DNA of 57,976 bases from Candidatus Altarchaeales archaeon WOR_SM1_SCG (GTDB lineage: Archaea > Altiarchaeota > Altiarchaeia > IMC4 > WOR-SM1-SCG). The notes below the pieces were generated by a model. That model did no database searches and was not told where the DNA came from. It was given only the letters and a program-made list of their open reading frames with translations. The stretch is taken from assembly GCA_001723845.1 (NCBI GenBank), contig MCBE01000234.1, positions 1 through 57,976 of the forward strand, given 5' to 3'. Positions within the stretch are counted from its first letter, which is position 1. Every line of letters begins with the position of its first letter. Positions 4,893 through 55,322 of this stretch are shown here, piece by piece. The translations under genes were made by a program, and so were the position numbers.

Positions 4893-7879
4893 ATTTTTAG
4901 TGATTTAATCATATTTTCTGCTTCAGCAGCATCTTTCTCCAGACCAATCTTTTTGTAGAGATCACGGCTTTTTGTGAAATAATCGGCAGCAGTTTTCCTG
5001 TCGTTCATTTCACGATAAATATACCCGATATTATTGTAAGTTACTGCAATGCCAGCGGCATCGCCGATCTTTTTCGTAATTTCCAGACTTTTTTGGTAAT
5101 ATTTCAATGCTCCGGGATAATCGCCCTGAGCATAATGAATTGAACCAATATTATTGTAAGTTGTTGCAAGACCTGCGGCATCGCCGATCTTTTCCGTAAT
5201 TTCTAAATCTTTTTGATAATATTTCAATGCTTCAGGATAATCGCCCTGAGCATAATGAATTGAAGCAATATTATTGTAAGTTGCTGCAAGACCTGCGGCA
5301 TCGCCGATCTTTTTCCTAATTTCTTTACTTTTTTGATAATATTTCAACGCTCCGGGATAATCGCCCTGAGCATCATGAATTAAACCAATATTATTGTAAG
5401 TTACTGCAAGACCGGCGGTATCGCCAATCTTTTTCTTAATTTCTTTACTTTTTTGATAATATTTCAACGCTCCGGGATAATCGCCTTGAGCACGATGAAT
5501 TAAACCAATATTAGTGTAAGTTGTTGCAAGACCGGCGGCATCGCCGATCTTTTCCATAATTTCTTTACTTTTTTGATAATATTTCAATGCTTCAGGATAA
5601 TTGCCTTGAGCATTATGAATTAAACCAATATTATTGTAAGTTGTTGCAAGACCCGCGGCGTCGCCGATATTTTTCGTAATTTCTAAATCTTTTTGATAAT
5701 ATTTCAACGCTCCGGGATAATCGCCTTGAGCATAATGAATTGAAGCAATATTATTGTAAGTTACTGCAAGACCGGCGGTATCGCCGATCTTTTTCGTAAT
5801 TTCTTTACTTTTTTGATAATATTTCAACGCTCTGGGATAATCGCCCCTGCTTTTATAGAAAAGACCAAGATTATTACACATAAAACTTTCACCTTTATCA
5901 TCATCCAATTCTTTACACGCTTCTGCGCCTATTTTAAACCATCTTTCCGCTTCATTAAGTTTTCTATAATATAACATCCACTGCAGTGCTTTCACATATT
6001 CTGAAATCAACTCATTTTTTGAATTTTCAATCGCCCACTCAAGCCCTGCTTTTATATTATCCAGGTCAGGATCAACTTCTTTCCAGTTGAGGATGTTATC
6101 TTTATTGTAATCCCCTGCTTTTTTTAAATAATAATTGCTGTGCCTTCCTTTCAGTTTTTCAACATCAACACCGGAATCCTTTAATTTCCCCGATGCAAAA
6201 GTCCTGATTATCGGCAGCTGCTTCCATCTTGTTTTTTCACCATCACCTGTGCAGTAAAACAGATCATGCCTTTCTATTTCCTCCATTGCATCCTGCCAGT
6301 TTTCCATCCCGATAATTTTATTTATCGCATTCCTGTTTGCACCGCCGAAATCCCCTCCTGCAAATACGGACATCATAGCAAAAAGTTTTTGTGCATTTTT
6401 GCCAAGCAAACGGTAGGAGAGACCAAGTGAGGTGTAGTAATTTTTAAGCCGGTCGGGAACATTCAGCCGCTCGCTTTTCAGTAGTTTGATCTCCTCCCGG
6501 AGTTTCCTGTAAAGTTCAGGCAAACTGAGATGTTTGACTTTCAGGAGAGGTGCTGAAAGTTCAATTGCAAGAGGAATGCCGCCTAAGAATGTGCAGATTT
6601 CATCAATCAATTCATCTGTTTTGGGTTTCTTATCATATTTCCAGCCCTTTCTTTCTGCTATTTCAATAAACAATTCTCGTGCATCCCGTGGATAAAGTCC
6701 TTCCAGCAGCAGGTTTGTTTCTCCCCGGAAACCTAATTCGTTTCTCCTGCTTGTGATTAAAATATTGGTTTTACCAGGGATGTTTGATAAAAAACCGATA
6801 AGTTGTTTTGCACTTTCATCTTTCGTTTCATATCTCTCCATAACGGTTTCAAAGTTGTCAACGATAAGCAGGCACCGATTCTGCTTCAGGTGATTGTGAA
6901 TTTTATTAAAATTAATTTGCTCTTCGCTAAACAAAACTTTTGCAAGCATTCTCAAAAGCCCGTCAGGACTAACATCCTCCTCAGTCATGTGCCAGATAAT
7001 TCCACCCCTGAAATATCCTTTCTCGTGCTGCCAGTTTGCAACTTCTCTTGCAAGAGAAGTCTTTCCGACTCCCGGGGGACCGTTAAGATTAATTATGTGG
7101 TAATTTTCTAAATTATCATTCAGAGAAACCATCTTTTCTTCCCTCCCGATGAATAGTTCTCCTTTAACTCTCTCCGGGATGTTTTCAGGGGTTTCCAGGG
7201 GATCAATTTCAGCATAAGTACCTTCTGTGCCATCTGAAATAAGTGTTTTATTTTCCTTCAGTTTCAATAAAAACCGTTTGGAGAAATAAGGTTCTTCCAT
7301 GATTCTGCATCGTATCCTATTTTTACATGATTCATCACCAACTTTCTTATCAGAAGCAACAGCAATCTTCCCCTGATTAAAAGCATAATCTATGTCGTTT
7401 CCGCAGGCAATTGCATTGTAGAACTGTTTATTAAATTGAAGTGCTGCACGAGCATTTATACTGTGTTTGTGAGAAACAGCAACAACCGCATTTACTTCAT
7501 CTTTAAGTTTTTCAGCAACAACATCCGAGTAAGAATGGCAGGCAATAAAAGAGATTAATTCTATTTTACTTCCATTGAGCATATCAACAAAATGCCTGCT
7601 GGAAACTCCATGAGCCTGCCCGTCTTTCTCTTCAAAAATTAAATCTCCTTTCACGGTTCCGTGACCTATAAAATGCAGGATATTATAACCCTTGTGCACT
7701 TCAGACATGAAAGCATCAACTGTGGCATGCGGGAGATAATGAACTTCTATAGCACCTTTGCTGTTTGAAAATGCTTTTTGTAGATTCTCCCTGTCCTTTT
7801 TTATATTAACCTGCCTGACACCAAAAAGCGGCATGGAGGAAACAACCAGTACTTTTAATATATTTTCTGTTTTATCCAT
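4883..7879 (-). CDS. CHAT protease - STAND NTPase - TPR protein
   Basis: A 998-aa cytoplasmic protein with three parts. Residues 1-180 are a CHAT (caspase-like) peptidase: the catalytic His73 lies in LHFIGHG and Cys114 in ISFIACHS. Residues 240-560 are a STAND/NB-ARC-type ATPase with P-loop GPPGVGKT (267-274), Walker B LLIVDN (337-342) and sensor ILITSRR. Residues 679-998 are eight 40-residue tetratricopeptide repeats, seven of them nearly identical. In the family, TPRs sense a trigger, the NTPase oligomerises and the caspase-like domain cleaves targets, often in anti-phage or death responses. No operon partner on this strand is visible. The divergent neighbours (DUF5678 protein and aspartyl protease) may act with it. 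The function is inferred. Confidence 0.9.
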   Translation of the reverse strand: MDKTENILKVLVVSSMPLFGVRQVNIKKDRENLQKAFSNSKGAIEVHYLPHATVDAFMSEVHKGYNILHFIGHGTVKGDLIFEEKDGQAHGVSSRHFVDMLNGSKIELISFIACHSYSDVVAEKLKDEVNAVVAVSHKHSINARAALQFNKQFYNAIACGNDIDYAFNQGKIAVASDKKVGDESCKNRIRCRIMEEPYFSKRFLLKLKENKTLISDGTEGTYAEIDPLETPENIPERVKGELFIGREEKMVSLNDNLENYHIINLNGPPGVGKTSLAREVANWQHEKGYFRGGIIWHMTEEDVSPDGLLRMLAKVLFSEEQINFNKIHNHLKQNRCLLIVDNFETVMERYETKDESAKQLIGFLSNIPGKTNILITSRRNELGFRGETNLLLEGLYPRDARELFIEIAERKGWKYDKKPKTDELIDEICTFLGGIPLAIELSAPLLKVKHLSLPELYRKLREEIKLLKSERLNVPDRLKNYYTSLGLSYRLLGKNAQKLFAMMSVFAGGDFGGANRNAINKIIGMENWQDAMEEIERHDLFYCTGDGEKTRWKQLPIIRTFASGKLKDSGVDVEKLKGRHSNYYLKKAGDYNKDNILNWKEVDPDLDNIKAGLEWAIENSKNELISEYVKALQWMLYYRKLNEAERWFKIGAEACKELDDDKGESFMCNNLGLFYKSRGDYPRALKYYQKSKEITKKIGDTAGLAVTYNNIASIHYAQGDYPGALKYYQKDLEITKNIGDAAGLATTYNNIGLIHNAQGNYPEALKYYQKSKEIMEKIGDAAGLATTYTNIGLIHRAQGDYPGALKYYQKSKEIKKKIGDTAGLAVTYNNIGLIHDAQGDYPGALKYYQKSKEIRKKIGDAAGLAATYNNIASIHYAQGDYPEALKYYQKDLEITEKIGDAAGLATTYNNIGSIHYAQGDYPGALKYYQKSLEITKKIGDAAGIAVTYNNIGYIYREMNDRKTAADYFTKSRDLYKKIGLEKDAAEAENMIKSLKIQE
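5006..5845 (-). repeat. Seven tandem 120-bp repeats encoding TPRs
   Basis: Each unit encodes a 40-residue TPR of the form GDYPxALKYYQKxxEI, then IGDxAGLAxTYNNI. Identity is kept at the DNA level, which points to recent expansion or gene conversion. Unit differences cluster at a few codons (SKEI/DLEI; HYAQ/HNAQ/HDAQ/HRAQ). Confidence 0.9.
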
Positions 7880-48623: not shown

Positions 48624-50663
48624 ATGACAAATAAAATAAAAATTGCGGCAATTCTCTGCGCACTTCTTTTACTCATCGTCTTGCTGAAATTCACATGGCT
48701 CTGCGGGTTTCTCCTAATTTTTTTTATCCCGGGTTTTGCCCTTACGCTTGTGCTTTTCAGGGACATTGCAGTAGACGAGAGAATTGGCGTGGCTGTAATT
48801 TTGAGTATCTCAATTAATATATTAACAATTTTTGCGGCAAATTACTTTCTTGACATTGAAATTACGAAACATAACATAACGGCTTTAATGTTACTGGTCT
48901 CTCTTTTATTTTTAGTTTTATTTTTAGTTTTTCTATATTTCAGGACTCAAGAATCTTTCAAAATTAAAAATTTAATAAATAATTTCAAGGTAAACAGAAA
49001 TGATGTGCTAAAGTCCCTGCTTTTGATTTCAACACTTGTACTGGTCTTTAATCTTATTTACGCTGCACACTGGGATTATTTGTACCCGTACCATACCGAC
49101 GAATGGGAGAACCTGGCTGAGGCGGTTGCCATAATGGAGAATCATGCCCTGCTAAATAAAGCCCCGAACTGCAAGGATATAAAGAAGAAAATTGATCTGG
49201 AAATCGGCTCTCATATATTTTTAGCGGAATTGTTTTTACTTACGGGCGCAGACCCCGTGACAACTTACAAATATCTTCCCGCTCTTTTTGCTGCAATTTC
49301 CGCATTTATGCTTTTTCTTGTTGTAAAGAGGTATAACTTTTATGCGGCAATTCTCTCCATGATTTTTTTTGCATCCCTCAAAACCAATATCTCAATTATG
49401 GGTATCTGGCTCTTTGCACCATTAACGATGAGCATTGCATTTATTTACGCAATCACATTCATGTTTCTTTATGCAATTGAAAATAAATTCGCATCTTTTT
49501 TGGGAGCATCCGCATCACTTCTTGCCCTCGCGCTGATCCATCCGATTTCAGCGGTTTTTGTTTATATGATTCTCTCATTGTACATAATCCTTAAATTTAT
49601 TTATTATTTATTTGAGCTTTTAAAAAAGTTATTGCTCGGGGGAGATAAAAAGGAAATGTTCTTTACATGGAAAAACACCACCGGATTTATAATATTATTT
49701 TTAATCCCGTTTATCTCTTTTATCTATTTTATGGCAATTCTTTCAAAAGGGACAACGGCAGATACAATAAACTGGTTTATCACGAAATTCATCATATTTC
49801 CAAAATCAACCGGCGTAAGCAGTTTGGTTTACGAGCCGGCATACCTCCCGGATATTTACGGGATTCTTGGTATCGGGCTTGCTGTGATTGGAATTTTATA
49901 TATTATTTACATGAGAAAGAAATGGAAGCATTCCGGTTTTCTTATTGCCGCCGCTTTAACGGGAATAATTAATTTAATTCTTTTTCATTTCCCGGGCATC
50001 GGCTCATCCTTGCTTAATCTCGCAGCATTCCCGTTCCGGGTATTTGCCTTAAATTTGACATTCAACCTCCCTGGGAATTTCGCGATACTTATATTCTATG
50101 AGCGATTCATATATTACACCATGGTATTTATTGTGCCGCTGTCAGCACTCGGATTATACGCATCGGCTTCTGCCGTTATTAATGCTTGCACTTTCGCAAT
50201 TAATATTGCCAAAATCAAAATTTTAAATAAAATTCACCGGCATATTTGTATTTTATTGTGCATCGCCTTTACGATTCTTGTATTCACAACAGTATTTTCC
50301 GGCTATTATGATGAAAAGGAAAAATTATATAAAATGATTACCGACGAGGACTATGAAGCGATAAAATGGATTGAAGAAAACAAGGGGCGAGGGCATGTAA
50401 TACTTGCAAGAACAGAGGTTTCCATGGCAGTATACTCAATAAGCAGGAATTATGTTGTTGCAGGGACATCACACGAGGATAACTGCCCCGGAGAAAATGT
50501 TAAGGATATTCACCGGTTTTTCATGGGAAACTGCAATGAGCGGACGGCAATTCTGAAAAAGCACGATGTTGATTATGTAATAACTGATTTTGAAATACCC
50601 TGCAATTTAAAAGAAATATACCGAAATGAAAAAAATTACATTTATGAGGTTAATATGTCATAA
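48624..50663 (+). CDS. Polytopic GT-C-type glycosyltransferase-like membrane protein
   Basis: A 679-aa protein with about a dozen membrane segments and a short soluble C-terminus (about 560-679). The first large extracytoplasmic loop has YPYHTDEWENLAEA, in which the Asp-Glu pair fits the catalytic acidic motif of GT-C glycosyltransferases (ArnT/PMT/GT39-like). The soluble tail contains DYEAIKWIEENKGRGHVILAR and NYVVAGTSHED, a pattern seen in such enzymes. It would use a lipid-linked sugar to glycosylate surface proteins or lipids, in line with the nearby epimerase and sequon-rich exosortase substrate. Confidence 0.7.
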   Translation: MTNKIKIAAILCALLLLIVLLKFTWLCGFLLIFFIPGFALTLVLFRDIAVDERIGVAVILSISINILTIFAANYFLDIEITKHNITALMLLVSLLFLVLFLVFLYFRTQESFKIKNLINNFKVNRNDVLKSLLLISTLVLVFNLIYAAHWDYLYPYHTDEWENLAEAVAIMENHALLNKAPNCKDIKKKIDLEIGSHIFLAELFLLTGADPVTTYKYLPALFAAISAFMLFLVVKRYNFYAAILSMIFFASLKTNISIMGIWLFAPLTMSIAFIYAITFMFLYAIENKFASFLGASASLLALALIHPISAVFVYMILSLYIILKFIYYLFELLKKLLLGGDKKEMFFTWKNTTGFIILFLIPFISFIYFMAILSKGTTADTINWFITKFIIFPKSTGVSSLVYEPAYLPDIYGILGIGLAVIGILYIIYMRKKWKHSGFLIAAALTGIINLILFHFPGIGSSLLNLAAFPFRVFALNLTFNLPGNFAILIFYERFIYYTMVFIVPLSALGLYASASAVINACTFAINIAKIKILNKIHRHICILLCIAFTILVFTTVFSGYYDEKEKLYKMITDEDYEAIKWIEENKGRGHVILARTEVSMAVYSISRNYVVAGTSHEDNCPGENVKDIHRFFMGNCNERTAILKKHDVDYVITDFEIPCNLKEIYRNEKNYIYEVNMS

Positions 50664-50847: not shown

Positions 50848-51084
50848 ATGATAACCACAACAACCACAACCACAACAACAGTAACTCTCGCAACAAACGC
50901 AGGAGTTGGAGAGGGTATTTTTTTAGTCGCGCTTCTTATAGTTTTGCTTTCGCTTAAAGAGATTTTTGATGCAGATAAAAACAAGTCCTCAGGTTCATTT
51001 GTAGCAACCGTGACTTATACGATTATCCCCTTGATATCGGTATTTTTCATTATTGTTGCTCAAAAAGTAATTGAAATATGGTAA
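50848..51084 (+). CDS. Small membrane protein with a Thr run
   Basis: A 78-aa protein. Residues 3-11 are nine Thr encoded by ACA/ACC repeats. Two hydrophobic segments (GIFLVALLIVLLSLKEIF and VTYTIIPLISVFFIIVAQKVIEI) are joined by a hydrophilic loop. The last codons overlap the start of the receptor gene by seven bases, which suggests that the two are made together. No family was recognised. Confidence 0.6.
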   Translation: MITTTTTTTTTVTLATNAGVGEGIFLVALLIVLLSLKEIFDADKNKSSGSFVATVTYTIIPLISVFFIIVAQKVIEIW

Positions 51085-53708
51085 AAATGTACAAACTAAC
51101 AGGTAAATTTAAGGCAGGTATGCCGGTTTTTCTTTTGTTCGGGTTAATTTTAATTGGGCTAATCAATCCTGTTTCGGGCGCGGTTGTAGTTTCAATAGAT
51201 TCTGATAAAAATAATTACTACCTGGGAGATACCGTGCAGTTCACAATCACCGTGGACATAGCAAATGAAGATACATGCGCCATAACACAGGCACAATTGG
51301 AAATTCACGACGGCAGTTCAATTACCTGCAATTTACCCGTAATTTACGGGAATTACGGGAATTACGGGAATTGCAATCTCCTGATATATATGACCGAGAC
51401 CCATCACGATGATTGCCTGGCTTACGGGGGGAATAATTTATTAACATATACGGTTGAATGGAAAATCCCTCTAAACTGGAGTGCAAGCCAGGAGCATGCC
51501 AATGTAACCGTGACCTTTGAAGGCAGCGAATACAGCAGCGAGACAACATTTTTTATATTCGGTATCCTTGCAGGAGACCCGATTGAATTGATAAAAGCAG
51601 CAGATACACAAACTGCAAAAAAAGGCGAAATTATTAAATACACCGTAAGTGTTGAAAACAATGATAATCAGCCGCTGAATGTATTTCTCAACGATACGGC
51701 GGACGATGACCTTAAATTCGTGGGTAATGTTACTGTAAACTGCAATTGCTCGGGATATATTTACAATGAAACCCCCTGGTTTTTCACAACCGACCCGCAA
51801 GAGCGTGCAACTGACTGGTGGGTTAATTTAACGAATCTTCCGCCCGGCTGTAAATGCACTGTGATAACAACGGCGGAAGTGATGAATATGACCGGCTCCT
51901 CAATTTTAAATAAGGTTACTGCAAAATCAAACAACCAAACACACGGTGCAATTGATGAATCAAAAATTACCGTAAGTTTTCCTGAAGTAGAGAAAGAAGA
52001 GCCTGAAAAGAAAGGCAAAGGCGTCACATACGGTCCCGTATCAACAATAGAGCCGGTAACTATTGTAACGGAGAAAAAAATTTTAACAAATATTACCGAT
52101 ACAATAACTCCGGGAACGCAATGCTTTAATATAAAATCCTTGATCCAGAGGTTTGAAGACGGGAAATTGGAATATGAATTGGAAAAGAATTTGACAAACA
52201 CTTCCTTCAATTTAATGCTTCCCAACGGGACATATACCGAATCAAAAACCGGGAAAAACGGTGAATTTTGCTTTGATTTTGAATGCGGGGATTATGAAAT
52301 TAACATAAGTTATGAAGATTTTGAAAAATATATAAAATCATTCAGGGCGACTTACGGGAATCTTTACATAACTCCTGATGATTTTGAGGCAAACACAGGC
52401 GATGCGTTGACCTACATTGTAACGGATAAAGATAAAAATCCTGTCGGTGATGTGCTTGTAAATGTCACGCTTCCCGGAGAAATGTTGCAATTCACAACAC
52501 TTGATGACGGGAAAGTTGAATTCAACACAGGGGAAGAAGAGGGCGGTTATAAAATATCTGCAGGGAAACACTGCTACGATGAAGGCACGCTCCAGGGAGT
52601 AATTAAAAGAGAAATTACCTGCGGGGACGGAACATGCGAAGGCAATGAAAACTGCGAAAACTGCCCCGGCGACTGCGGCTCCTGCCCTGTGCCGGAATTA
52701 ATGATTGATTGTACGAAAGAAGTCAAAGCCGGCGGGAAAATAACCTGCAAAGTTACGGACGAACAGGGTAATCCGGTTCCGGGCGCGACTGTCAAATTAA
52801 CCGATGGAAGTATCTACTCAACGGACACCGGGGGTAGCGTTGAATTCACTGCCGGGCAGGCAGGCGAAATTGATGCCTATGCAGATAAAGAAGGTTATGC
52901 GCAAAGTAAAAAGGAAAAGATTATTGTAACCATGAAAGGATGCCTGCTGATTAATGTAAAAATTCTCTCAATATGCGGGTATTGGTGGCTTATTTTAATT
53001 TTATTAATAATTGTTTTAATTTTATTTATATTACTTATGAAAAAGAAAAAGACCGCTTCCGACCTGGAGTTTTTATTAAACGCGGAATCGGAAGAACAAT
53101 TAGATAAGGTTCTTGATAAATTTAAGAAGATTTATGTGACTCCCAAAACTTACGAAGAGTATATGAAAGTTACGGGTAAAACGGTTGACGAGCGCATAGA
53201 AGAAATTGAACTCAATGATAAAGGAAAGGAATATATGGAAAGCGTAAATGATGAAACCGTTGCCATTGCAATGCAGCTTTCTGCAAATATAGTTTTAACT
53301 GAGAGCGAAGAAAGAAAAAAGATTGCAGAGGATAATAAATTAAATGTGTTTAATCTTGAAGAAGTAGTTATCATCAAAAAGAAAAAGACAGTTGCTGATC
53401 TTGAATTTTTACTGACCGCGGTTTCAGAGGATAAACTTGGTGAAATTCTTGATAAATTCAAGAAAATTTATGTAACGCCGTTTACTTATGATGAGATTGC
53501 AAAAATTGGAGGTGAAGTTGACGAGCGCATAGAAGAGACAAAACTCAATGATAAAGGAAAGGAATATATGGAAAGCGTAAAGGATGAGACCGTTTCTCTT
53601 GCAATGCAGATCAGTGCGGAAATCTTTTTAACGGAAAATGATGCGCGAAGAAAGATTGCCGGGGAGAAGGAATTTAAGGTGCTGGATTTTGAGGAGGCGA
53701 AAGGATAA
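51078..53708 (+). CDS. Surface Ig-like receptor with tandem cytoplasmic PIN-like domains
   Basis: An 876-aa protein with a signal peptide (about 12-34). It carries a string of extracellular beta domains: a DUF11-like repeat (about 165-290: AKKGEIIKYTVSVENNDNQPLN), carboxypeptidase-regulatory-like folds (about 430-515, 545-620), and a Cys-rich CGDGTCEGNENCENCPGDC segment (about 515-533). One membrane segment follows (about 636-658). The cytoplasmic tail holds two similar units of about 105 residues. Each has a DLEFLL start, an IYVTPxTYxE segment, and the closing ETVxxAMQxSAxIxLTExxxRxKIA, which is the pattern of PIN ribonuclease domains. Acidic positions are largely kept. PIN identity is inferred by eye. 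Confidence 0.7.
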   Translation: MVKMYKLTGKFKAGMPVFLLFGLILIGLINPVSGAVVVSIDSDKNNYYLGDTVQFTITVDIANEDTCAITQAQLEIHDGSSITCNLPVIYGNYGNYGNCNLLIYMTETHHDDCLAYGGNNLLTYTVEWKIPLNWSASQEHANVTVTFEGSEYSSETTFFIFGILAGDPIELIKAADTQTAKKGEIIKYTVSVENNDNQPLNVFLNDTADDDLKFVGNVTVNCNCSGYIYNETPWFFTTDPQERATDWWVNLTNLPPGCKCTVITTAEVMNMTGSSILNKVTAKSNNQTHGAIDESKITVSFPEVEKEEPEKKGKGVTYGPVSTIEPVTIVTEKKILTNITDTITPGTQCFNIKSLIQRFEDGKLEYELEKNLTNTSFNLMLPNGTYTESKTGKNGEFCFDFECGDYEINISYEDFEKYIKSFRATYGNLYITPDDFEANTGDALTYIVTDKDKNPVGDVLVNVTLPGEMLQFTTLDDGKVEFNTGEEEGGYKISAGKHCYDEGTLQGVIKREITCGDGTCEGNENCENCPGDCGSCPVPELMIDCTKEVKAGGKITCKVTDEQGNPVPGATVKLTDGSIYSTDTGGSVEFTAGQAGEIDAYADKEGYAQSKKEKIIVTMKGCLLINVKILSICGYWWLILILLIIVLILFILLMKKKKTASDLEFLLNAESEEQLDKVLDKFKKIYVTPKTYEEYMKVTGKTVDERIEEIELNDKGKEYMESVNDETVAIAMQLSANIVLTESEERKKIAEDNKLNVFNLEEVVIIKKKKTVADLEFLLTAVSEDKLGEILDKFKKIYVTPFTYDEIAKIGGEVDERIEETKLNDKGKEYMESVKDETVSLAMQISAEIFLTENDARRKIAGEKEFKVLDFEEAKG

Positions 53709-53719
53709 AATTCTAATGC

Positions 53720-54484
53720 TCAAATTGCTGCGGGAATTACCAGGAATAATACAACATTTGCCAGACCGTGAGACATTGAGATGCCAAGCAAGCTTTTTGT
53801 TTTAAGGAATACATAACCGTAAAACAGGGCAACGAAAAAAACAAATAAAATATCCAGCGGGTTCTTCCATATTATGTGCATCGCCGTAAATACAAGAGAG
53901 ACAAAAACAAGTGCGTAATTCCTGCCGAGAACATTTTTCAGGTTTGTTAAAATAATTCCTCTGAATACCAGTTCCTCTGAAAATCCCGAGAAAAACATTA
54001 AAGCGAGTGCGTATGCAATCAATGTGGGAATCACTGCTTCGCTTATTACTGCCTGGTCTCCTAATATCAAATATTCTATATATCCGAATAAAATTCCCGT
54101 TGCTCCGACGCATAACTGCCATTTAATATTCCCCATGCAAAAGCCAAAATCTCGCGGATGTATATCATTACTTTTTATAAACAGGTAAGCAGTTATGATA
54201 AGAAGTGAATTTGTAACAATTATTGCATATATAAATTGAAAATCAGTTAATGATGTGCTTAGAATCCTTATCAGGGGAGGAAATACCAGTACCTGCATAA
54301 ATACAAAATATTTTTTAGCAGACAAAAACGAATATGATAAAATAATAAGAATGAGGACTGCATGGATTGCTATTCCCAAATGAGGCGAGTCAAGACCAAG
54401 TTCCGCATAATATGCAATTATGATTTCTGCAATTACCAAAAGCGTTAAATACGATACAAATGCAATCTTTATATCTCTGTTCAT
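53720..54484 (-). CDS. CPBP family intramembrane metalloprotease (copy 1)
   Basis: A 254-aa membrane protein with about eight segments. Motif 1 is EELVFRG, motif 2 is FTAMHIIW and motif 3 is SMSHGLANVVLF, giving the Glu-Glu/Arg, His and His residues of CAAX-protease and bacteriocin-processing (CPBP/Abi) enzymes. It is convergent with the receptor gene. It is a tandem duplicate of the next gene, and the last 80 codons are nearly identical to it. Confidence 0.9.
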   Translation of the reverse strand: MNRDIKIAFVSYLTLLVIAEIIIAYYAELGLDSPHLGIAIHAVLILIILSYSFLSAKKYFVFMQVLVFPPLIRILSTSLTDFQFIYAIIVTNSLLIITAYLFIKSNDIHPRDFGFCMGNIKWQLCVGATGILFGYIEYLILGDQAVISEAVIPTLIAYALALMFFSGFSEELVFRGIILTNLKNVLGRNYALVFVSLVFTAMHIIWKNPLDILFVFFVALFYGYVFLKTKSLLGISMSHGLANVVLFLVIPAAI

Positions 54485-54507
54485 ATTATCTTTAATATTT
54501 TTGTGAA

Positions 54508-54534
54508 ATTATTATTATTATTATTATTATTATT
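54508..54534. repeat. (ATT)9 microsatellite between the CPBP genes
   Basis: Nine ATT units lie in the 55-base gap upstream of copy 1 and after the stop of copy 2. Length variation here could change spacing in the copy 1 promoter region. Confidence 0.85.
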
Positions 54535-54539
54535 TCAAT

Positions 54540-55310
54540 TCAATGTAAATACAGGGGAATCACCAGGAAAAGCATAATATTTGCCAGACCGTGAGACATT
54601 GAGATGCCAAGTAAGCTTTTTGTTTTAAGGAATACATAACCGTAAAACAGGGCAACGAAAAAAACAAATAGAATATCCAGCGGGTTCTTCCATATTATGT
54701 GCATCACCGTAAACACAAGAGAGACAAAAACAAGCGCATAATTCCTGCCGATAACACTTTTCAGGTTTGTTAAAATAATTCCCCTGAAGACCAGTTCCTC
54801 TGAAAATCCGGTGAAAAGAAATAGAGCAAAGGAATATGCTATGAATGTCGGGAAGATTACTTCACCGATAATTTGTTCCCCAAGTATTATATACTCCGTA
54901 TAACCTAATAAAATTCCGGTTGCTCCGATGAATAACTGCAGTTTAACATTCCCGGTTGAAATACCTATATCTTTTAAAGGTATTTTGTTATTTTTTATAA
55001 ACAAATACGCCGTTAAGATTAGAAGAGAATTTATGATTATTATCGTATGTATAAATTGAAAACCAATTAATGATGTGCTTAAAATTCTCATCAGGGGGGG
55101 GATTAAAAGTATGGGCATATACACGGAACATTCCCTGCCGGGAAAAAACGAATACGAGAGAAGTATAAGAATAAGTATTACATGGATTGCTATTCCCAGA
55201 TAAGGTGAATCAAGACCGAGTTCCGCATAATATGCAATTATGATTTCCGCAATTACCAAAAGCATTAAATATGATGCTAATGCAACATTTATACTTCTAT
55301 TACTCTTCAT
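54540..55310 (-). CDS. CPBP family intramembrane metalloprotease (copy 2)
   Basis: A 256-aa paralogue of the preceding protein with the same motifs (EELVFRG, FTVMHIIW, SMSHGLANIMLF). The ATG at 55310 aligns with the start of copy 1; another ATG at 55316 adds two residues. The N-terminal half has diverged more than the C-terminal half, which suggests gene conversion over the 3' part. It lies just after the TPR gene on the same strand. Confidence 0.9.
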   Translation of the reverse strand: MKSNRSINVALASYLMLLVIAEIIIAYYAELGLDSPYLGIAIHVILILILLSYSFFPGRECSVYMPILLIPPLMRILSTSLIGFQFIHTIIIINSLLILTAYLFIKNNKIPLKDIGISTGNVKLQLFIGATGILLGYTEYIILGEQIIGEVIFPTFIAYSFALFLFTGFSEELVFRGIILTNLKSVIGRNYALVFVSLVFTVMHIIWKNPLDILFVFFVALFYGYVFLKTKSLLGISMSHGLANIMLFLVIPLYLH

Positions 55311-55322
55311 TCTCATAAAAAA

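Follow-up and report, generated by a model that had tools for sequence, protein, structure and literature searches.

The locus described here raises the question of why a surface protein of an altiarchaeal cell should carry, behind its membrane anchor, a tail with the fold of a nuclease. The window that we analysed is a stretch of 57,976 nucleotides from Candidatus Altarchaeales archaeon WOR_SM1_SCG (draft genome G000; 2.55 Mb in 300 contigs, 74% complete), and the protein in question, P0001, is encoded on its forward strand by an unbroken reading frame of 876 aa (51078–53708). Hydropathy indicates a signal segment at residues ~14–35 and one transmembrane (TM) helix at residues 634–654 (Kyte-Doolittle window up to 3.39), which together with a KKKK stop-transfer at residues 655–658 occupies positions 52977–53051 (+). 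Since these lysines directly follow the sole C-terminal TM, the positive-inside rule places the tail in the cytoplasm, and P0001 is by its hydropathy topology a predicted secreted, type I membrane protein. Its ectodomain, all encoded on the forward strand, comprises an N-terminal Cys-containing region (residues 34–165, 51177–51572) that has orthologues at seven further Altiarchaeota loci, some tail-bearing and some tail-less; a DUF11 domain (residues 170–286, 51585–51935; PF01345 at 25.4 bits against a cut-off of 24.6, and also TIGR01451); a mid region (residues 341–505, 52098–52592) common to the tail-bearing proteins of Ca. Altarchaeum; a Cys-rich segment (residues 514–536, 52617–52685; CGDGTCEGNENCENCPGDCGSC / CGDGTCEGNENCENCPGDCGSCP) that recurs in paralogues; and three CarboxypepD_reg/Ig-like stretches, the strongest at residues 555–620 (52740–52937; PF13620, E 4e-15). 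Pfam and hydropathy thus agree with the initial annotation, which had read 51078–53708 as extracellular Ig-like and Cys-rich domains with a single membrane segment. The last 222 residues consist of two repeats of ~110 aa each that are 63% identical to one another, namely unit 1 (residues 655–766, 53040–53375, +) and unit 2 (residues 767–876, 53376–53705, +).

Searches of the tail against Pfam, NCBIfam and PDB sequences returned no significant match and no curated model above its own cut-off, with one unit grazing PF20698 at E 0.09, below the cut-off. The fold was recognizable at the level of predicted structure. AlphaFold2 (AF2), given an alignment of both window units and four Altarchaeum tails, modelled unit 2 with a pLDDT of 94.7 and a pTM of 0.87, in the alternating alpha/beta order of the PIN topology, while the model of the tandem tail reached a pLDDT of 42.7, probably because its input alignment spanned unit 1 alone. 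When the unit 2 model was compared with the PDB using Foldseek, the top TM-scores belonged to PIN/VapC structures (VapC4 of Pyrococcus horikoshii, 5h4g, 0.72; 1ye5, 0.69; 3h87, 0.68), and the main non-PIN folds, methylglyoxal synthase and carboxyspermidine dehydrogenase, scored 0.45–0.54; the E-values were modest (about 1e-3 to 1e-2, best 2.6e-3), and a fold search of BFVD gave nothing strong. Profile–profile comparison with hhalign matched the tail to seven standalone PIN-like ORFs at Prob 97.5, and against eleven standalone PINs the support was graded: 97.2 for the tails of the window genome, 97.0 for the tail on its contig C31, 95.3 for those of G001/G020/G017, 92.8 for the Altarchaeum tails and 66 for the korarchaeal tails (P 5.6e-5, such P-values being optimistic because the standalone PINs were originally retrieved with the tail profile). 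By this comparison, the PIN assignment has weak support in the tails of G022/G007 (49.5) and of G004 (1.2). Reversed controls gave 0.2–0.3 beside the matches of 97.2–97.5 and at most 3.4 across all groups. The standalone PINs themselves are anchored in known families, as three of the four that were checked are DUF3368 proteins, and their profile matches the solved PIN structures 2mdt, 2lcq and 1o4w. Matches of the tail to MarR/TcaR and WRN were rejected as chance (E of 0.01 or above, partial coverage, contradicted by the predicted fold), with one TcaR exception at E 0.001 when the whole of P0001 was the query. On the combined AF2, Foldseek and hhalign results we accept the tail as a predicted member of the PIN domain-like fold. 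The proposal of two tandem PIN-like units inside the cell therefore holds, and structure prediction and profile comparison did not return the outcome that had been named as fatal to it, namely a non-PIN fold.

Whether this fold could still cut RNA depends on its acidic site, which we mapped by aligning 27 tails with 11 standalone PINs. The first aspartate (D1) remains D in 23 of the 27 tails, whereas the second acid (E2) is acidic in 4/27 tails versus 11/11 standalone PINs (and is Lys in 9/9 korarchaeal tails), the GE glutamate (E3) in 4/27 versus 11/11, and the fourth position (D4a) in 5/27 versus 11/11. Each window unit has three of the four acids: unit 1 carries D662 at D1, E694 at E2 and E742 at D4, with N724 at the GE position, and unit 2 carries D774, E806 and E853, with K835 at the GE position. 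By eye, the conserved E of a 'DET' motif had been a candidate for the GE glutamate; the profile alignment places that E two residues later. The tails of G001/G020/G017 have none of the four acids, while the relatives G022_C44 and G007_C28 hold three or four, G022_C44 having four. As a family, then, the tails lack the D1/E2/E3/D4 quartet by which a catalytically active PIN nuclease is recognized, and the acidic site that the initial annotation asked to be mapped has been lost across most of the family and kept in some members. In the AF2 model, D1 caps the N-terminal end of a helix (strand at 5–7, helix from 9), so its retention can be explained without catalysis.

The tails are nevertheless constrained. 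Their dN/dS is 0.16–0.34 for the pairs where it could be computed, indicating purifying selection, and within Altiarchaeota the tails are 65–84% identical versus 51–71% for the ectodomains (e.g., 83.6% vs 51.7%), the acid-less group included. Purifying selection implies that the tails have some function, and loss of the acids under constraint is, at the level of sequence, the pattern expected of a pseudoenzyme; residual nuclease activity of P0001 itself, with three acids per unit, is possible. The net charge of the tails ranges from −12 to +6, and hence there is no shared nucleic-acid-binding signature. Compared with standalone PINs of the DUF3368 type (neighbours of PF11848; archaeal VapC-like), the tails share the succession of strands and helices in the PIN core, a D1 that follows strand 1, a D/N near the fourth-acid position and a profile match across the whole unit; they differ in having no C-terminal extension of ~45 aa, in the predominant absence of E2, E3 and D4, and in being fused behind the TM of a surface protein. 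VapC toxins are soluble, are partnered by a VapB antitoxin and have the full acid quartet. The best structural match to the tail unit is a VapC, but the tail of P0001 is tethered to the membrane and its gene has no antitoxin gene beside it.

The tail is not a chance feature of one gene, as its paralogues within G000 and its homologues in other genomes confirm by sequence comparison. Proteins on contigs C76 and C255 of G000 have one tail unit each, whereas paralogues on C52, C233 and C270 have the Cys-rich/Ig/TM part, end ~12 aa past the TM and have no tail, which identifies the tail as a module. A third contig, C31 (L078 15–5390), encodes a 1,791-aa surface protein with fn3, pentapeptide and Cys-rich regions, a long cytoplasmic linker and a more divergent single unit; this tail is the nearest of all to ordinary PIN domains and keeps an MDDWDAR motif. 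The tail profile matched 13 of 29 Altiarchaeota genomes and was found on ORFs of the surface-protein type in 10 of the 29, a count that leaves out G003, G013 and G015, where standalone PIN ORFs are the sole matches. In G022, six surface proteins combine many DGxxxxxExDVDCGGxCxPC repeats with a divergent PIN-like tail, one of these ORFs being 3,357 aa long, and the divergent tails at L068–L073 (G022 C31, C44, C37, C84 and C79; G007 C28) retain D1 and are acidic at the GE position. The module also occurs, in divergent form, in a second phylum, where 13 of the 16 species of a Korarchaeum-like genus (g35, a name to be read as a lead) encode a tail protein of ~1,260–1,320 aa in the order beta-helix, DUF11 repeats, TM and PIN-like tail, with one copy per genome and an additional partial copy in G229. 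Scans of genome contigs found four named loci with the Altarchaeum tail (A3), and none there or in viral contigs with the window tail (A1).

The genes around P0001 bear on what the protein is for. Upstream lies a membrane glycosyltransferase-like protein (DUF1616-like; 48624–50663, +), with homologues at equivalent loci in G013, G007, G021, G023 and G026, and then a small membrane protein of 78 aa with two predicted TM and an MITTTTTTTT start (50848–51084, +), which belongs to a conserved family for which there is no Pfam or NCBIfam model. This Thr-run ORF overlaps the start of P0001 by 7 bases, and the initial annotation had described the two as translationally coupled; the ORF, its two predicted TM and the conservation of its family stand, and coupling as a conserved trait does not, given a 41 bp gap in G027 and the opposite strand in G017. 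Downstream are a CPBP/Rce1-like intramembrane protease (53720–54484, −) with the EExxxR, H and HxxxN motifs, and a second, paralogous one (54540–55316, −). The window CPBP passes PF02517 (63.6 bits; cut-off 22.4; motifs SEELVFRG, MHIIWK and SHGLAN), and the nearest NCBIfam models for the CPBPs (53720–55316) are myxosortases, below their cut-offs (34.3 vs 130 bits for MrtS and 32.7 vs 100 for Mrt_core). There is no antitoxin gene next to P0001, the small upstream ORF being the CPBP-linked, two-TM Thr-run protein and not VapB-like, and the VapBC arrangement of a small toxin ORF beside an antitoxin gene is absent from the locus. Judged from these neighbours, the context is one of surface-protein glycosylation and maturation rather than of toxin–antitoxin. 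P0001 is probably glycosylated.

Strong matches to the Thr-run family occur in at least 10 Altiarchaeota genomes and in other archaeal families; in several of these families, the genes for its members (~80 aa, two TM, MITTxTTTT start) are linked in the genome with those for CPBP/Rce1-like proteases. Besides the window, sites include L063 9372–9614, L065 10833–11153 and L184 6800–7045 and, approximately, L183 ~6452–6685, L185 ~6356–6544 and L186 ~6544–6795 and 7023–7274. A Thr-run gene adjoins a CPBP gene in 9 of the 11 Altiarchaeota genomes that have both, against 0.1 expected (the genomes not being independent), and also lies near one in genomes of f9, f40 and f33. A CPBP gene is the neighbour of the tail-bearing gene in 4 of 10 genomes against 0.2 expected, these being the window, G017, G026 and G027; the korarchaeal tail loci have no CPBP or Thr-run neighbours. 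In G027, the interval between the tail-bearing gene and CPBP (L065 7063–7876) contains a 161-aa ORF that looks PLD-like on inspection and a membrane ORF of 108 aa, neither of which matches Pfam, and the CPBP copy at L065 6128–6913 has EELIFG in place of the usual EExxFR and may be impaired, to judge from this motif.

Myxosortase cleaves proteins whose sorting tags consist of a Cys motif, a C-terminal TM and a basic cluster (PMC11980579). The window resembles these myxosortase/MrtX systems in its CPBP glutamic protease and in placing a C-terminal TM and a basic cluster behind the ectodomain; it differs in that its CPBPs fall below the NCBIfam cut-offs, in the 220-aa tail past the basic cluster and in the Thr-run partner, which is not described in that study. 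C633, the TM and KKKK of P0001 look like such a tag, but ~220 aa follow, and known substrates stop right after the basic cluster, so P0001 falls outside the definition. One possibility is that an archaeal myxosortase-like system has the Thr-run protein as its partner or substrate. Elsewhere, genes for proteins with PEF/PEP-CTERM-like ends (LPEFGT/LPEAGT-TM-basic) adjoin the Thr-run and CPBP genes in G022 (L117 3006–8057), G020 (L119 1–4556) and G001 (L118 3795–8900), joined in G022 and G020 by an exosortase (TIGR02602 above cut-off), so that two kinds of C-terminal sorting enzyme share one archaeal locus.

Several explanations of the tail have to be weighed against these data. The main rival, although improbable in our estimate, is regulated intramembrane proteolysis, in which the adjacent CPBP would cut the TM and free the PIN-like tail into the cytoplasm as a signal of surface status. 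The adjacency in four genomes, the intact active-site motifs and the nearness to myxosortases, which cleave at a C-terminal TM, are all in its favour; however, CPBP and Thr-run are linked without a tail-bearing protein in G013, G021, G023 and other archaea, meaning that the tail is not the reason for that pair's existence, and the korarchaeal tail genes manage without a CPBP neighbour. Less likely again is a live ribonuclease receptor as the initial annotation envisaged, with contact at the ectodomain clustering the tails so that RNA is cut at the membrane. The PIN fold, the widespread D1, the window's acids at D1, E2 and D4 with a further acidic D adjoining the GE position, and tandem units that could form an intramolecular VapC-like pair would suit such a receptor. 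Coupling of surface contact to RNA cleavage is not supported, the RNase reading being contradicted by a quartet that is incomplete in both window units and mostly lost in the family: the GE acid is replaced by N/K in the window and gone from 23/27 tails, E2 is Lys in every korarchaeal tail, and three relatives without any quartet acid are equally constrained, while D1 has its non-catalytic explanation at the helix N-cap. The missing antitoxin gene, together with same-locus orthologues in G013, G007 and G023 that have the N-terminal ectodomain and no tail, speaks against contact-triggered cleavage as well.

Those tail-less orthologues imply that the tail is dispensable for a basic surface role, and with the paralogues that stop shortly after the TM they lend something to the view that a captured toxin domain is kept just to stop transfer or to plug the cytoplasmic side and has no specific partner. 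Such a passive relic is unlikely, given purifying selection, the slower change of tail than ectodomain in Altiarchaeota and the retention of a single protein in 13/16 species of g35. That the tail has some other fold with a superficial PIN likeness, e.g., a MarR-like wing, would find a foothold in the weak HMM matches to TcaR/MarR and in Foldseek E-values that do not fall under 1e-3, and is very improbable in the face of the AF2 topology, the PIN-dominated fold search, the full-length profile–profile match and the clean reversed controls.

The reading that we prefer, with a probability of about 0.5, is that P0001 is a surface anchor whose degenerate PIN tail is a module for binding or anchoring in the cytoplasm, a role made most likely by the loss of most metal-binding acids in a tail that is still under purifying selection. 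Exported and held by its one C-terminal helix, the modular surface protein would be kept in place or clustered from the cytoplasmic side by the PIN units, which may bind through the ancestral RNA- or partner-binding surface of the fold or through VapC-like pairing of PIN domains, and the CPBP protease of the locus, together with the Thr-run protein as its partner in the membrane, would probably mature such C-terminally anchored surface proteins. The three acids of each window unit, and the three or four of G022_C44 and G007_C28, count against this reading, as do the spread in tail charge, the tail-less orthologues, the departure of P0001 from known myxosortase substrates and the modest Foldseek E-values. 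A bolder proposal, which we regard as doubtful, is an undescribed TM signalling module of Altiarchaeota and Korarchaeota in which PIN-fold tails, some of them (e.g., those with three or four acids) still catalytic, would be clustered or released by CPBP/Thr-run and would couple the state of the surface to cytoplasmic RNA metabolism.

Neither the PIN fold nor the types of ectodomain are new in themselves. Archaeal surface stalk proteins of the DUF11/CARDB/NosD type, which P0001 resembles in ectodomain composition, usually terminate shortly past the TM, unlike P0001 with its folded cytoplasmic domain; to our knowledge, archaeal proteins of the surface or S-layer type have hardly been described with such domains. 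The novelty claimed for a PIN-ended surface protein holds, in that the architecture is absent from the domain libraries searched, no report of PIN-tailed surface proteins or of a PIN-fold cytoplasmic tail on them was found in the open-access literature searched, and neither a survey of archaeal membrane proteins nor the hami paper speaks of PIN domains. A nuclease fold has here been repurposed as the tail of a membrane protein. Since the tail proteins are long, occur in small numbers per genome and include one from a Korarchaeum-like genome, they are directly testable. The conserved Thr-run/CPBP pair points to a widespread, uncharacterized system for maturing archaeal surface proteins, and the retention of a PIN-fold tail by two distantly related phyla of archaea implies that cell envelope and cytoplasm are connected by an unrecognized link.
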